DNA of 64,000 bases from Hydrogenothermus marinus (lineage in GTDB: Bacteria; Aquificota; Aquificia; Aquificales; Hydrogenothermaceae). Location of the stretch: assembly GCF_003688665.1 (NCBI RefSeq), contig NZ_REFO01000011.1:186001-250000 (forward strand). The letters run 5' to 3'. The number at the start of each line of letters is the position of its first letter. Position 1 is the stretch's first letter. The translations under genes and the position numbers were made by a program. Under the pieces are notes generated by a model. It did not search any database. It was not told where the DNA came from and saw only the letters and a list, made by a program, of their open reading frames with translations. Below are positions 25,627 to 32,055 of the stretch, one piece after another.

Positions 25627-27345
25627 ATGGAAGAAGTAGTTTCCATATTTACTGAGTATTTAAAGAGTAATATATATACAGAAATTATTACATTAATTCT
25701 TGGGATATTTTCTGTAATATTGTTTTTTCTTTTAAAAAAGCATAGAGATGACTTTAAAAATTGGTACCTTTACGAAGGTATAAAGTTTTTTTATATTTTT
25801 TCTTCTTTTTTAGCCTTTCTTTTTTTAGAAATGAAACTAAAAAGCTATATTACTGGCCCTCTATTTAAAAATATATTTATGTTTTTTATTTTTTATCAGA
25901 TAATAGATCTTATTTTTGAAGTTTTTAAAATAAACAGAAAAAAGCTAAAAAATTTTATAGATTTTCTACTTGGTCTTAATATAGTAATACTTTTTTTCCT
26001 TGATTTAATGCATAATTTTTCATTACCTTATGGTAAAAATTACAATTTAATAATATTTCTAAAAATAATAGTGGCTATTCCTTTCTTAATTACATTTTTT
26101 TACCTTTCAATGAGAGCAAGTATAAAACTTCCTCTAGAAAATAAAACCTTAAAAAATTTAATAAATAAAATCTTTTATATAACAAATATATTTCTTGCTA
26201 TATTTACAATTCTTTGGATTACTGGGATATTTAAAATTACTTTTACAATTATTTTAGGATTTGTTGGAATTTCCTTACTTACCATTTTATTTTTAATTAC
26301 ACTATTTTGGGCTAATGACTATATAAATAAAAATTTAAAAGTTATATTAGAAGTTTTTCCTGATTTTAAAAACAGAGTAGATACAGTTTTAGCTATAATA
26401 TATTTTATTTCCTCTTATTTTTATATACTAGAAGTTTTCAATGTAAAATACATCCACCAAAAACTTAAAAGTTTATATATAGTAAAAACAGATGTTTTAT
26501 CTATATCTGTATATTCTTTAATAGAAGCCATTATTTTTTATTTATTTATTTTAAATCTAATAATACTTTTAAAAGTATTTATAAGATATTTACAATTTAA
26601 AAAGAAAGGAGAGTTTGAGCCTTCTCCTATAGAAGCTGTAATTTATAATTTTGGAATATTATTAGCATCTATAATTGCTTTATCTATGCTTGGTATAACT
26701 TGGAAAGTTTTACTTCCTATTATTGGTGCTTTAGGCATAGGTGCAGGATTTGGTCTTCAATCTATTATTAATAACTATATAAGTGGTTTTATAATGATTT
26801 TTAATCGTAAAGTAGAAATAGGAGATGTAGTAGAAATAAAAGGAAATGCAGGAGATTTTGTAGGCAACCCTCAAGAATTAATTTTTGGTATTGTTACAGA
26901 TATTGGAGTTATAAATACTGTAATAAAAACAGTAGATGGAATAAGTGTAGCAATACCAAATTCAAGATTTGTTTCAGATAATATTATAAATTATACATTA
27001 GAAAATAATTACGTAAGAATGAGAATTCCATTTAAAATACCTTATGATGCACCAAATAAAAAAGTTGAAGAGATACTCCTTTCTTCTGTTGAAGATTTTA
27101 AAAATTTTTTATCAAAATATAATAAACCTCAAGTATGGTTTTTTGAAATGAAAGATTATTATAATGAATATGTACTTGTTATATGGATAGATGCGAGAAA
27201 CTGGAAAAGAATAATATGGTTAAAAAGTGAAATATATAAAAAAGCTTGGGAAAAGTTTGAAGAAGAAGGAATAGAAATTCCAGTTACAACTATTGAGATA
27301 ATTAAATCATATTTAGAAAAGCATAAAAATTCAGATAAGACTTGA
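25627..27345 (+). CDS. MscS-family mechanosensitive ion channel with extended N-terminus
   Basis: Releases solutes on membrane tension. Seen in 572 residues: about eight or nine hydrophobic helices before the MscS core, then the pore helix GALGIGAGFGLQSIINNYISGFIMIFNRKVEIGDVVEI and the beta domain FGIVTDIGVINTVIKTVDGISVAIPNSRFVSDNIINYT. Longer than E. coli MscS (286), so it belongs to the multi-helix subfamily. The start abuts the aldolase stop, and no clear ribosome site is seen. Confidence 0.92.
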   Translation: MEEVVSIFTEYLKSNIYTEIITLILGIFSVILFFLLKKHRDDFKNWYLYEGIKFFYIFSSFLAFLFLEMKLKSYITGPLFKNIFMFFIFYQIIDLIFEVFKINRKKLKNFIDFLLGLNIVILFFLDLMHNFSLPYGKNYNLIIFLKIIVAIPFLITFFYLSMRASIKLPLENKTLKNLINKIFYITNIFLAIFTILWITGIFKITFTIILGFVGISLLTILFLITLFWANDYINKNLKVILEVFPDFKNRVDTVLAIIYFISSYFYILEVFNVKYIHQKLKSLYIVKTDVLSISVYSLIEAIIFYLFILNLIILLKVFIRYLQFKKKGEFEPSPIEAVIYNFGILLASIIALSMLGITWKVLLPIIGALGIGAGFGLQSIINNYISGFIMIFNRKVEIGDVVEIKGNAGDFVGNPQELIFGIVTDIGVINTVIKTVDGISVAIPNSRFVSDNIINYTLENNYVRMRIPFKIPYDAPNKKVEEILLSSVEDFKNFLSKYNKPQVWFFEMKDYYNEYVLVIWIDARNWKRIIWLKSEIYKKAWEKFEEEGIEIPVTTIEIIKSYLEKHKNSDKT

Positions 27346-27370
27346 AAAAAGTTTTTTTCAGTAACATAAT
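27342..27370 (+). promoter_or_regulatory. Promoter of sqr
   Basis: -35 TTGAAA (27342-27347), 17-base spacer, -10 CATAAT (27365-27370). Transcription would start near 27377, inside the inverted repeat that follows. Confidence 0.6.
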
Positions 27371-27372
27371 AG

Positions 27373-27390
27373 TTAGTTAAGATTAACTAA
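27373..27390 (+). promoter_or_regulatory. Inverted repeat / putative operator at the sqr start site
   Basis: TTAGTTAA-GA-TTAACTAA is a perfect 8-bp inverted repeat between the -10 box and the ribosome site. The cydA leader has GTTAATATTAAC at the equivalent place, and both fit GTTAA-n-ATTAAC. Function is inferred: an operator or an mRNA 5' hairpin. Confidence 0.55.
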
Positions 27391-27403
27391 TAGGAGGTTT
27401 TAA

Positions 27404-28831
27404 ATGGCTAAAGTTGTAATAGTTGGTGCTGGGTTTGCAGGCCATTACGGTGCTTTAATTCTTCAAGATGAACTAAAAAAAATAGGTGGTAATCATGAAA
27501 TTACTGTTATAAGCAGAGTTCCTAAATTTACCTATATTCCTTCTCTTGTATGGGTTGGAATAAATCTTATGAAAGCAGAAAAAACTCAGTTTGATCTAAA
27601 ACCTGTTTATGACAAATTAGGAATAAACTTTATTCATGGAAAAGTAACAGAAGTATGGCCAGATAATAAGTATGTAAATGTTGAGCTTCCTGATGGCAAA
27701 ACTCAAAAAGTAGATTATGATTTCTTACTTATGGCAACTGGTCCTTATCTTAACTTTGAAGCTACAGAAGGACTTGGTCCTGAAAATGGTTATACCCAAT
27801 CTATATGTTCTCCTCCTCATGCAACAGAAGCTGCAGCGAATTATTTAGAACTTGTTGCAAGATTAGAGAAGGGAGATAAAGCTACTGTAGTTGTTGGTAC
27901 AGGACATGGAACTGCTACATGTCAAGGTGCTGCATTTGAGTATATATGTAATATTTGTAATGATTTAGTAGATAGAGGTTTAAGAGATAAAGTAAGATTA
28001 ATATGGCTTTCAAATGAACCAAGACTTGGAGACTTTGGAATTGATGGACTTGAAGCAAAAAGAGGTTCTTTAATTTTTACATCTGAAATGATGGCAGAAG
28101 GCCTTTTTGCAGACTATGGAATAGAATATCAAATTCGCTCCCATGTGCATAAAGTAGATAATAAAAAAATATATACAGAAAATTTAGATGGTGAATTTAA
28201 AGAAATAGAATATGATTTTGCTATGTTAATACCTCCATTTAAAGGTCAACCTATAAAATGGTTTGATAAAGATGGAAATGATATTACAAACAAAGTATGT
28301 AATCCTGCCGGATTTGTTAAAGTTGATGCAAATTATGGAAAAAGTTGGGAAGAATTAGATGGTCCTGATTGGCCTAAAACATATCAATCACCAGTTTATG
28401 AAAATATATTTGCCGCTGGTATAGCGTTTGCTCCTCCTGGACCATTGTCTGAACCAAATAAATCTCCAAATGGTACTTTAATAGGACCTGCACCTCCAAG
28501 AACAGGATATACTGCAGAACTTTCAGGAAAAGCAGCAGCATTAAATATTGCAGAAATGATAAAAGGAAATAAACCTACTCATCATGCATCTATGGCAGAA
28601 ACTCCAGGGCTTTGTATTGCATCAATGAAGAAACATGTATTTGGTGGAGAAGCTGCTACAATTGCAATCTATCCAGTAGCAAGAGATTATACAAAATACC
28701 CTGAATATGGTAGAGATTTAGATAGCTGTACAGCAGAAATTGGTATGGCAGGAGCTTGGTTTAAATATGCCCTTCATTATGCTTTCTTATATAAACTTCA
28801 AGCAAAACCTTTCTGGAAATTAATACCATAA
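27404..28831 (+). CDS. sqr: Sulfide:quinone oxidoreductase family flavoprotein
   Basis: Oxidises sulfide to sulfur or polysulfide and reduces menaquinone at the membrane surface. Seen in 475 residues: FAD Rossmann motif VIVGAGFAGHYGALIL (7-13 core), ATGPYLNF, second dinucleotide motif VVVGTGHGTATCQGA, Cys135 and Cys173 in positions suited to the redox-active pair, further Cys182/185/299, and an amphipathic aromatic C-terminus for membrane contact. The exact SQR type cannot be fixed without alignment; a flavocytochrome c flavoprotein is the alternative. GGAGG precedes the ATG by 7 bases. A 47-codon gene follows. Confidence 0.82.
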   Translation: MAKVVIVGAGFAGHYGALILQDELKKIGGNHEITVISRVPKFTYIPSLVWVGINLMKAEKTQFDLKPVYDKLGINFIHGKVTEVWPDNKYVNVELPDGKTQKVDYDFLLMATGPYLNFEATEGLGPENGYTQSICSPPHATEAAANYLELVARLEKGDKATVVVGTGHGTATCQGAAFEYICNICNDLVDRGLRDKVRLIWLSNEPRLGDFGIDGLEAKRGSLIFTSEMMAEGLFADYGIEYQIRSHVHKVDNKKIYTENLDGEFKEIEYDFAMLIPPFKGQPIKWFDKDGNDITNKVCNPAGFVKVDANYGKSWEELDGPDWPKTYQSPVYENIFAAGIAFAPPGPLSEPNKSPNGTLIGPAPPRTGYTAELSGKAAALNIAEMIKGNKPTHHASMAETPGLCIASMKKHVFGGEAATIAIYPVARDYTKYPEYGRDLDSCTAEIGMAGAWFKYALHYAFLYKLQAKPFWKLIP

Positions 28832-28846
28832 AAGGAGGATTAAAAA

Positions 28847-28990
28847 TTGAGACATAAAAAAACTGAAAAAAGAGCAACATTTAGATTCTCAGATAAAGAT
28901 AGAAAAAGAAGAAAAAGTTATTTCTATCAATTTTTTAGAGCAATTATACTTGGATTAAAATTCTGGAGTCTTGTAAGAAAAGTTCATTAA
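28847..28990 (+). CDS. 47-residue basic protein downstream of sqr
   Basis: Starts at TTG, 8 bases after a perfect AGGAGG, and ends 9 bases before a terminator that closes the sqr transcript. The product is very basic (RHKKTEKRATFRF, KDRKRRKSYF), followed by an amphipathic/hydrophobic stretch FFRAIILGLKFWSLV. It shares the transcript with sqr, so a role as an SQR accessory peptide, assembly factor or membrane anchor is possible. I recognise no family. Confidence 0.6.
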   Translation: MRHKKTEKRATFRFSDKDRKRRKSYFYQFFRAIILGLKFWSLVRKVH

Positions 28991-28998
28991 AGTTTTTA

Positions 28999-29025
28999 TA
29001 AAAGAGGTCTTTTGGCCTCTTTTTA
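28999..29025 (+). terminator. Intrinsic terminator of the sqr transcript
   Basis: AAAAGAGG pairs with CCTCTTTT around an 8-base loop, followed by T residues. The remaining stretch to 29232 is AT-rich with no convincing gene or RNA. Confidence 0.85.
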
Positions 29026-29232
29026 TTATATTAAAAAATTTCCTTGCTTAATTTTGTGAAAATGCTTTTCTTCTAAAATGAAGCTATAAATCCTGTAAAT
29101 AAAGTTTTTAATTATACTAATCCTTTCATAATATTAATTATCAAAATTTAATTGAAATTCTTGTAATAGATTTTATATCAGGATATAGATAAAAACTAAA
29201 AAAGAAATTTTAAATAATATTAGTATTACTTT

Positions 29233-29262
29233 AAAAAAAACCTACCGACTAAGTCGGTAGGT
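29233..29262 (-). terminator. Strong intrinsic terminator of cydAB
   Basis: CCTACCGAC and GTCGGTAGG form a 9-bp stem with a 3-base loop. On the minus strand it runs into eight T residues. It is 10 bases past the cydB stop. Confidence 0.92.
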
Positions 29263-29271
29263 TCAGTTTAA

Positions 29272-30312
29272 TTAATGACCATATCCACCTTTTGCTGAAA
29301 CTTTACCTTTAAATACTTTATAAACATAGGTAGTATAACCAATAACTATAGGTAAGAATATTAAAGTAGATACAAGCATTATAGTTAATGTCAAATCAGA
29401 AGAAGATGAGTTCCAGATAGTTAAATTATATTTTTCATCAATTGTAGATCTGATAAATACTGGATAACTTGCTAAAGCAATTGTTAAAACAGTACCTGTT
29501 ATTGTAATTGATGATGCATAAATAACTTTATCATATTTTTCGTCAACTACAAGCCATTTAAAGTATAAAAACACTCCAATTATCATTAAGATAGGAGCTA
29601 TCCAGAATAATGGATAATCAAAAAAGTTATTAAAAAGTTCAGATTTTAAAGCAATTATAAAGAAATCTGCAACTGCAACACTTACTACATATCCAACAAA
29701 TCCTATAATTGCTGCTTTCTTTGCAAATTCAAAAGCTTTTCCTTCTGTTTTAATTAAAAGATAAGCTACTCCATGGATTAAAAACATAAATACAGATACA
29801 AATCCCATTAATATAGGAATAGGTTTTAAAAGAGTAAATAAATTACCATAAAAAACACCTTTCTCATCAATAGGAATACCTATTACTGCATTTCCAACTG
29901 CAACACCAAATAAGAATGCAGGTACAATATTTCCTATCCAATAAGCAATATCCCACCATTTTTTCCAAGTTGGTGAATCTTTTTTATTTCTGTATTCAAA
30001 AGCAACTGCTCTTAATATTAAAGCCCATAAAACTAAAAACATTGCTAAATAAAAAGCACTAAAAGATACTGCATAAACTATAGGGAATGCTGCAAAAAGC
30101 ATTCCACCACCAGCAATAAGCCAAACCTCATTACCATCCCAAACAGGAGCAATAGCATTCATATTTGTAAGTCTTATTTCTTCATCTTTTGTAAAGATAT
30201 GTAATATCCCACTTCCTAAATCAAAGCCATCAGTTAAAGAATATCCAACAAGGAAAATGCCAGCAAGTAAAAACCAAATACCATTTAATGTTGTAATTAA
30301 TTCCATTGGCAT
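29272..30312 (-). CDS. cydB: Cytochrome bd oxidase subunit II
   Basis: Structural subunit of the quinol-oxidising bd oxidase, in the cytoplasmic membrane. Seen in 346 residues: LNGIWFLLAGIFLVGYSLTDGFDLGSGIL, VWDGNEVWLIAGGGMLFAAFPIVYA (the CydB signature), and about eight helices ending ...GGYGH. AAGGAGG precedes the ATG by 9-10 bases. It follows cydA by 1 base. No cydX-like micro-gene was seen after it; the terminator follows at once. Confidence 0.95.
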   Translation of the reverse strand: MPMELITTLNGIWFLLAGIFLVGYSLTDGFDLGSGILHIFTKDEEIRLTNMNAIAPVWDGNEVWLIAGGGMLFAAFPIVYAVSFSAFYLAMFLVLWALILRAVAFEYRNKKDSPTWKKWWDIAYWIGNIVPAFLFGVAVGNAVIGIPIDEKGVFYGNLFTLLKPIPILMGFVSVFMFLIHGVAYLLIKTEGKAFEFAKKAAIIGFVGYVVSVAVADFFIIALKSELFNNFFDYPLFWIAPILMIIGVFLYFKWLVVDEKYDKVIYASSITITGTVLTIALASYPVFIRSTIDEKYNLTIWNSSSSDLTLTIMLVSTLIFLPIVIGYTTYVYKVFKGKVSAKGGYGH

Positions 30313-30313
30313 C

Positions 30314-31873
30314 TTATCTTCCCTCCTTGTTTATTTGAGAAAATGCAGTAGAAACACCCACATTACCTGCCGCATTAGTATTATAATCAGGGCTTGAAGG
30401 GGATAAGTTAGGACCTTTATTTATAGCTCTAACCATAGCATACACAAAAACTATAAATAGAATTGTATAAATAATAGTAAATACAGTTAAAGATAAAGCT
30501 ACATTAGCAGCTGGTACAGGAGATACTGCATCAGCAGTTTTTAATATTCCATAAACAATCCAAGGTTGTCTTCCAACTTCTGTTGAGATCCAGCCAAGCT
30601 CACTTGCAATATATGGTAAAGGTATAGAAAGTACTAAAATCCATAAGAAACCTTTACTGTTATATAAAGTTCCTCTTTTGAGTTTCCAAAGAGCAATTAA
30701 AACTATTAATGCAAATAAAAATCCAAGATATACCATTAAGTGGAAAGTTGTGAATACTAAAGCAATAGAAGGTAAATCTTCATATTTAATATTTAAAGCA
30801 TGAGCTTTTATTTTAGCCTCAACTAATTGATCTTGAAGTTTTTGCTTTTCTTCAGGATTTGTTGCTTGAGCTAATTTTTCTTTTATAACAGGAATTTTAG
30901 ATTCATATTCTTTAGCTTTTTCTTGATACTCTTTTACTAAATCATCAATTCCTTTAACTTCAGCATTTGGATCATGATAAGAAAGAATACTTAATAAATA
31001 AGGTATTTTTATTATCATTCTACTTTGATGATGTTCTTGATCTATTACTCCAAATAAATCAAGAGATGCTCCTTTTTCTGTTTGGAATTTACCTTCAAAC
31101 ATTGCAAGTTTTAAAGGTTGATGATGAGCTACTAAATATCCGTGTAAATCTCCAAATAATATTTGAATAAGAGATGCTATTGTAGTAAATATTAAAGCTA
31201 TTTTTAATCCTACTTTAGCAAATTCAACATGTCTTTTTTTAATAAGGTAAAAAGCCATTACACCCATTACAAAAAATCCTGCAGTAATAAAACCAGCATC
31301 TACAGTATGTAAAAATCTAATCCAAGTTGTATGATTCCATGCTGCAGCTAAAAAGTCTGTTAATTCTGCTTTAATTCCTTGAGGAGATTCTACTAATCTA
31401 TAACCTTCTGGAGTTTGTTGCCAAGAGTTTGCAATAAGTATCCATAGCGCAGACAAAGATCCTCCTATTGCTACCATCCAAGCAGAAAAAGCATGTACTT
31501 TATCAGAAACTCTTCCTTTACCAAATAAGAATAACCCTATAAAAGTTGACTCTAAGAAGAAAGCAGTTAACCCTTCTAAAGCAAGTGGAGCTCCAAAAAT
31601 ATCTCCAACAAGTTTTGAATATTCAGACCAGTTTGTACCAAACTCAAATTCCATTGTAAGACCACTTGCAACCCCTACTGCAAAGTTAATAGCAAAAAGC
31701 TTCATAAGGAACATAGCAAGATCTGAATAAACCTGTTTCTTGGTTTTAAGGTATAAAGTCTCAATAATAGCAATGAGAATACCTAAACCAAGAGTTAATG
31801 GAACATAAATGAAATGAAAGAATGCTGTAGCGCCAAACTGCCATCTGGCAAGCGTTAGAGCGTCTAAATCCAT
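30314..31873 (-). CDS. cydA: Cytochrome bd oxidase subunit I
   Basis: Carries hemes b558, b595 and d and reduces oxygen to water with menaquinol; high oxygen affinity, often sulfide-resistant. Seen in 519 residues: ALTLARWQFGATAFFHFIYVPLTLGLG with an N-terminal heme His, SALWILIANSWQQTPEGY, a long Q-loop with extra coiled coil (about 250-360), and GWISTEVGRQPW, the CydA hallmark. GAGGAGG lies 7 bases before the ATG. First gene of cydAB. Confidence 0.96.
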   Translation of the reverse strand: MDLDALTLARWQFGATAFFHFIYVPLTLGLGILIAIIETLYLKTKKQVYSDLAMFLMKLFAINFAVGVASGLTMEFEFGTNWSEYSKLVGDIFGAPLALEGLTAFFLESTFIGLFLFGKGRVSDKVHAFSAWMVAIGGSLSALWILIANSWQQTPEGYRLVESPQGIKAELTDFLAAAWNHTTWIRFLHTVDAGFITAGFFVMGVMAFYLIKKRHVEFAKVGLKIALIFTTIASLIQILFGDLHGYLVAHHQPLKLAMFEGKFQTEKGASLDLFGVIDQEHHQSRMIIKIPYLLSILSYHDPNAEVKGIDDLVKEYQEKAKEYESKIPVIKEKLAQATNPEEKQKLQDQLVEAKIKAHALNIKYEDLPSIALVFTTFHLMVYLGFLFALIVLIALWKLKRGTLYNSKGFLWILVLSIPLPYIASELGWISTEVGRQPWIVYGILKTADAVSPVPAANVALSLTVFTIIYTILFIVFVYAMVRAINKGPNLSPSSPDYNTNAAGNVGVSTAFSQINKEGR

Positions 31874-31892
31874 TTTTCAACCTCCTCAGTTG

Positions 31893-31904
31893 GTTAATAT
31901 TAAC
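31893..31904 (-). promoter_or_regulatory. Palindrome / putative operator in the cydAB leader
   Basis: GTTAATATTAAC is a perfect 12-base palindrome between the cydA promoter and its ribosome site. Extended, TAGTTAAGTTAATATTAACC resembles TAGTTAGTTAAGATTAACT at sqr. Confidence 0.5.
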
Positions 31905-31914
31905 TTAACTATAA

Positions 31915-31943
31915 ATTATTTATCCATAATTTGAATATGTCAA
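31915..31943 (-). promoter_or_regulatory. Promoter of cydAB
   Basis: On the minus strand consensus -35 TTGACA (31943-31938), 17-base spacer, -10 AATAAT (31920-31915). Start expected near 31908, just before the palindrome. Confidence 0.65.
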
Positions 31944-32055
31944 TACCTTTTTTCCCCATAAAGACTGTATTTTGAAGAAAAGTAAAATGGCATAAATTTA
32001 AAGTTTTAAAAATAATACAATTTATAAATTTAATAATATTTAAGGAGAAAGAAAA

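Follow-up and report, generated by a model that had tools for sequence, protein, structure and literature searches.

We analyzed a 64 kb window of the Hydrogenothermus marinus genome (G000:C11:186001-250000; family Hydrogenothermaceae, genome size 1.604 Mb) that carries the genes for a sulfide:quinone oxidoreductase (SQR) and a cytochrome bd oxidase. The sqr gene (27404..28831, plus strand) encodes a protein of 475 amino acids which, compared with solved SQRs by phmmer, gave a best E value of 3.6e-45 and aligned with them in the three redox-centre cysteine regions. The bd oxidase is encoded on the minus strand by cydA (subunit I, 30314..31873), which matches bd-oxidase models, and cydB (subunit II, 29272..30312; TIGR00203, E 5e-79). 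A preliminary description of this stretch had claimed that sqr and cydA each possess a sigma-70-type promoter with a 17-base spacer, followed by a palindrome and a ribosome site, and re-reading the window confirmed these elements at the positions given. Specifically, the sqr promoter (TTGAAA-17-CATAAT, 27342..27370, plus strand, 10 of 12 consensus matches) is followed by the perfect 8-2-8 inverted repeat TTAGTTAAGATTAACTAA (27373-27390, plus strand), then by AGGAGG and the ATG at 27404. Likewise, the cydA promoter (TTGACA-17-AATAAT, 31915..31943, minus strand, 11 of 12 consensus matches) precedes the palindrome core GTTAATATTAAC (31904-31893, minus strand), AGGAGG, and the ATG at 31873. When aligned on their cores, the sqr (AGTTAAGATTAACTAA) and cydA (AGTTAATATTAACCAA) copies are identical at 14 of 16 positions. 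These two promoters are the top-scoring promoter-like sites within 27300-32000, a region that holds no overall excess of such sites (16 observed versus 24 in shuffles).

Comparison with related genomes indicated that the palindromes are the core of a longer putative operator of about 20 bases, approximately GTTAGTWANNNNTWACTAAC (GTTAGTWA-N4-TWACTAAC), which is conserved in the Hydrogenothermaceae. In the window, its copies are the 20-mers GTTAGTTAAGATTAACTAAT at sqr (27372..27391, plus strand) and TTAAGTTAATATTAACCAAC at cydA (31889..31908, minus strand). The TTAGTWANNNNTWACTAA core has 43 exact forward matches in 41 genomes of the family, versus 5 for the reversed pattern, and all 30 of the perfect sites that we examined are intergenic even though the loci are 90% coding. 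Upstream regions of sqr and cydA were gathered from relatives. Dinucleotide shuffles served as the control for these promoter sets, as reversing the sequences keeps a palindromic motif and is therefore uninformative. Allowing up to three mismatches, the 20-mer was found in 15 of 17 cydA promoters (0.41 expected) and in 15 of 24 sqr promoters (0.36 in shuffles), while GTTAR-N6-YTAAC with up to one mismatch was present in 21 of the 24 sqr promoters (1.2 expected). By the same mismatch test, none of the cydA promoters from a sister family carries the operator. Palindrome-constrained expectation maximisation on the cydA promoters of other genera yielded the motif GTTAGTAAATATTTACTAAC, usually as two copies per promoter, one just 5' of the ribosome site and the other 58-116 bases upstream.

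Next, matrices trained exclusively on promoters from outside the window's own genus were used to rank all positions of the 64 kb. The cydA-trained matrix placed 27372-27391 first and 31889-31908 second (scores of 19.5 and 15.4, the next site in the window scoring 10.7), and the same two sites ranked first and second with the sqr-trained matrix. The strength of this result lies not in the raw scores but in the fact that both matrices independently pick these two promoters. As far as sequence can tell, it is this cross-genus ranking, that is, comparative evidence, that decisively supports the shared site.

Within the H. marinus genome (1,604,000 bases), searched by pattern and by single stretches, GTTAA-NN-TTAAC occurs in three places, namely the sqr promoter, the cydA promoter, and one site inside a coding gene. 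The preliminary description had also pointed to a half copy of the palindrome after the cbb3 promoter. Although the sequence GTTAATAT is indeed present there (minus strand, 45106-45099), the window contains 10 copies of this 8-mer versus 7.6 expected by chance, no full operator scores at this place in a matrix scan of the window, and the half copy is put down to chance.

The operator also precedes other genes across the family. Among sulfur-metabolism genes, sites were found upstream of a YeeE/YedE-type sulfur transporter (genera g4 and g7), an MST-like rhodanese (g6 and g8), cysM (g1 and g6) and, in one genus (g10), a persulfide-dioxygenase-like metallo-hydrolase with rhodanese domains. Further sites precede NapH-like 4Fe-4S proteins (g1, g4, g6, and g7), a PEGA/beta-propeller lipoprotein (g1, g6, and g7), a major facilitator superfamily (MFS) transporter resembling Bcr/CflA exporters (g4 and g7), a ferredoxin/PepQ pair, a Rieske protein, and NapA. 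Judging from these sequence patterns, the genes share one operator and hence probably form a single regulon with sqr and cydAB among its members, and the site very probably serves to switch genes of sulfide handling and of respiration jointly. Since the operator recurs at other sulfur-metabolism genes, the signal is best read as sulfide or reactive sulfur. The earlier proposal of a single sulfide- or oxygen-responsive regulon of sqr and bd oxidase consequently stands as regards an operator that is conserved across genera at sqr and cydA alike and recurs at sulfur genes, and is to be trimmed of the cbb3 half site.

The likely explanation, in our view, is that one dimeric transcription factor recognizes the GTTAGTWA-N4-TWACTAAC copies at both palindromes and acts as a repressor of sqr and cydAB that is released by sulfide or reactive sulfur. 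With the usual distance of 7 bases to the -10 element, transcription would start around 27377 for sqr and 31908 for cydA, and the operators would cover approximately -5 to +15 and +1 to +20, respectively. Because both copies would overlie start sites, where a bound protein would block initiation by RNA polymerase, repression is the simplest reading. The factor would leave the DNA in response to a rise in sulfide or reactive sulfur species, or to the change in redox state or copper that such a rise causes. Once derepressed, SQR would remove sulfide into the quinone pool and the sulfide-tolerant bd oxidase, switched on jointly, would re-oxidise that pool, while the same operator would serve the other sulfur-handling genes across the Hydrogenothermaceae. 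We infer both the repression and the signal from the observed sites, their conservation, their intergenic placement, and their set of targets. The Hydrogenothermaceae are major oxidisers of sulfide and hydrogen in hot springs and vents, and a conserved operator linking SQR to a sulfide-tolerant bd oxidase offers a direct handle on how respiration is switched under sulfide.

The content of this putative regulon resembles that of described systems, since known sulfide responses centre on SQR, persulfide dioxygenase, rhodanese, YeeE/YedE, and bd oxidase. BigR governs yeeE-yedE-pdo2, and in Acinetobacter baumannii CydAB is upregulated along with the jointly responding sulfide oxidation/detoxification operon of the FisR regulon (PMC7315123). 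In E. coli, expression of cydAB is raised by sulfide and also by mutation of ygaV (PMC9774250). The ArsR-family persulfide sensors SqrR, BigR, and YgaV are repressors whose sites lie in or close to the promoter, and SqrR controls sulfide-oxidation genes. Their typical targets (sqr, persulfide dioxygenase, rhodanese, and YeeE/YedE) recur at the scale of the family, whereas in H. marinus itself only sqr and cydAB were found. On the other hand, the SqrR operator ATTC-N8-GAAT differs from GTTAGTWA-N4-TWACTAAC, and FisR is a sigma-54 activator whereas the sqr and cydA promoters described here are of sigma-70 type. A literature search for regulons of Sulfurihydrogenibium, Hydrogenothermaceae, and Aquificales found no paper within the library covered.

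Several results weigh against this interpretation. The bare 12-mer GTTAA-NN-TTAAC is not enriched genome-wide (3 occurrences versus 5 for a reversed control); what is unusual about it is its location. Near matches to the degenerate 20-mer are not in excess in H. marinus either (9 versus 10 in controls), and for this reason membership in this species can be asserted for sqr and cydAB alone; here the regulon looks contracted to these two at high stringency. The cydA site of the window has three mismatches to the 20-mer. The cydA-trained score of the sqr site was matched by the best site in 2 of 100 shuffled windows and that of the cydA site in 6 of 100; the corresponding sqr-trained scores were reached in 20 and 23 of 100. 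The sqr promoters of other genera carry a shorter form of 16 bases (GTTAGTnnTTGyTAAC), mostly at -76 to -155 of the start codon, and such a far-upstream position would be compatible with activation there or with two related sites. Finally, non-sulfur genes are also among the targets (those for the NapH-like proteins, NapA, PEGA lipoprotein, PepQ, and MFS transporter).

As for the protein that binds the operator, no regulator is conserved beside sqr or cydAB across the family loci and no operator was seen at any regulator gene. The best candidate, which we put forward tentatively, is a fusion of a DeoR-type helix-turn-helix (HTH) with a NosL-like domain, encoded in H. marinus at G000:C10:202950-203558 (L349). 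The fusion is present in all genomes of the family except G022 and G048, and a DeoR-type winged HTH was found in every site-bearing genome, G022 aside. In G022 the sqr/cyd contig resembles genus g1, and G048 is 83% complete and has no exact site. The contig in question (G022:C182) is labelled genus g5 while its sqr and cydA are most like those of genus g1, a possible contamination. Nine cysteines are invariant in 15 orthologues, including those of the CxxC/CC motifs, and searches of Pfam and of solved structures matched the C-terminal part to copper-binding NosL. The operator of E. coli DeoR, TGTTAGAA-TACTAACA (PMC5326754), contains the half-site TGTTAGTA, nearly identical to half of the Hydrogenothermaceae operator; the two have TGTTAG(T/A)A in common, which includes the GTTAG half. 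In addition, the recognition helix VSEMTI is common to the candidate and E. coli DeoR only, when compared with AgaR, UlaR, SrlR, and GlpR. However, the halves abut in the DeoR operator (16 bp) and lie 4 bp apart here (20 bp), and E. coli DeoR has other targets and a sugar-phosphate sensor domain in place of the cysteine-rich NosL-type domain of the candidate. Orthologues from sister family f2 have the helix VSLMTI, and in f2 genomes the motif is only weakly enriched (46 versus 29); within the order, the fusion is conserved in these two families, and none turned up in a third. Two further points tell against the candidate, as helices of the SEMTI type are common in the DeoR family and no operator lies near the DeoR-NosL gene, thus revealing neither autoregulation nor linkage to targets. 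The case is circumstantial and is the weakest of our inferences. If the fusion did bind the operator, it would constitute a new class next to the known sulfide sensors SqrR/BigR, CstR, and FisR, and it may conceivably sense reactive sulfur or Cu(I) in a manner not described before and govern sulfide detoxification and respiration family-wide through GTTAGTWA-N4-TWACTAAC. In several genera the DeoR-NosL gene is convergent with a fusion of TusA and a Se/S carrier.

It is also quite conceivable that the binder is another conserved regulator, of the universal Crp/Fnr type, the IclR family, TetR, or the Rex type. Crp turned up in all of the family genomes searched and IclR genes in the majority of them, and elsewhere Rex controls cydAB through AT-rich palindromes, which counts in favor of a Rex-type protein. 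However, Rex-type sites (TTGTGAA/TTGTTAA-N4) differ by eye from the Hydrogenothermaceae operator, and the TetR neighbor was not found in several genera. The Crp/Fnr-type protein has an FNR-like helix (VETAIR) and was disfavored as the binder; it would be better suited to separate boxes in the same cydA promoters. These boxes, TATGAT-N4-ATCATA and FNR-like TTGAT-N4-ATCAA, lie between the two operators in L070, L071, L072, and L075, and since they suit the universal Crp/Fnr-type protein, cydA in other genera is probably under double control. Other candidates were set aside: Rrf2 did not pass the family cut-off in G003, G013, and G014, all of which have strong sites, and no clear MarR gene was detected in H. 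marinus. This genome has two ArsR genes, one of arsenic type (ELCVC) and one linked to trxA with cysteines at other positions, and neither displays a BigR-like cysteine pair when judged by eye. No operator lies near the trxA-linked ArsR, and this protein was not detected in g9, a genus with strong sites.

Turning to the signal, the operator may be real and shared and yet respond to oxygen, redox state, or the supply of electron acceptors, with SQR included because it delivers electrons to the quinone pool. The bd oxidase, Rieske protein, NapA, and NapH-like ferredoxin proteins among the targets would fit, as would the weak sister-family sites preceding a hemerythrin and a haem-copper oxidase subunit. 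We consider this rather unlikely, as YeeE/YedE, the persulfide dioxygenase-rhodanese, the MST-like rhodanese, and cysteine synthase are sulfur-specific targets. Less probable still is copper limitation caused by sulfide precipitating copper, to which DeoR-NosL, through its Cu(I)-binding-type domain, would respond by switching on sulfide removal and the bd oxidase, which contains no copper. The NosL-like C-terminal part and invariant cysteine motifs of the candidate speak for such a signal, but none of the targets was recognized as a copper transporter or chaperone, the MFS protein being Bcr/CflA-like, and the assignment of the regulator is itself unproven.

Regarding the nature of the element, the palindromes could in principle form hairpins in the RNA leader that control translation, as both lie just 5' of the ribosome site and the leaders fold weakly (-3.6 and -5.9 kcal/mol at 37 C). 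This is very improbable given that the leaders have virtually no folded structure at 65 C and that the site of other genera lies up to approximately 155 bases upstream, often twice per promoter. Chance palindromes in an AT-rich genome, which the lack of genome-wide enrichment of the 12-mer would allow, have the lowest probability of all and are contradicted by the conservation, the intergenic placement, and the cross-genus prediction of the same two places.

Other features accompany the two transcripts. Terminator-like hairpins were identified in the sequence at the end of the sqr (29000..29023, plus strand) and cydAB (29238..29264, minus strand) transcripts. Directly 3' of sqr lies a small gene with a TTG start (28847..28990, plus strand) for a family-conserved protein of 47 amino acids (MRHKKTEKRATFRFSDKDRKRRKSYFYQFFRAIILGLKFWSLVRKVH). 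This protein has no Pfam match, a counterpart occurs 3' of sqr in 20 of 21 Hydrogenothermaceae loci, and it is probably an overlooked partner of SQR. In front of cydA, some genera encode a small NifX/MrpORP-like protein (L206, L226, L397, and L403), relatives of which are preceded by motif-like sites in sister families. Elsewhere in the genome, a second Crp/Fnr-type regulator (L298 / L008, G000:C10) is divergent from a DoxX-like gene, which is followed by genes for a small cysteine-rich protein and a DUF692-like protein, perhaps a metal-handling operon. Finally, arrays of TAGTTCAGATAAAACAA with a spacing of approximately 65 bases (G000:C1 and C5; L010-L033) are probably clustered regularly interspaced short palindromic repeats (CRISPR).

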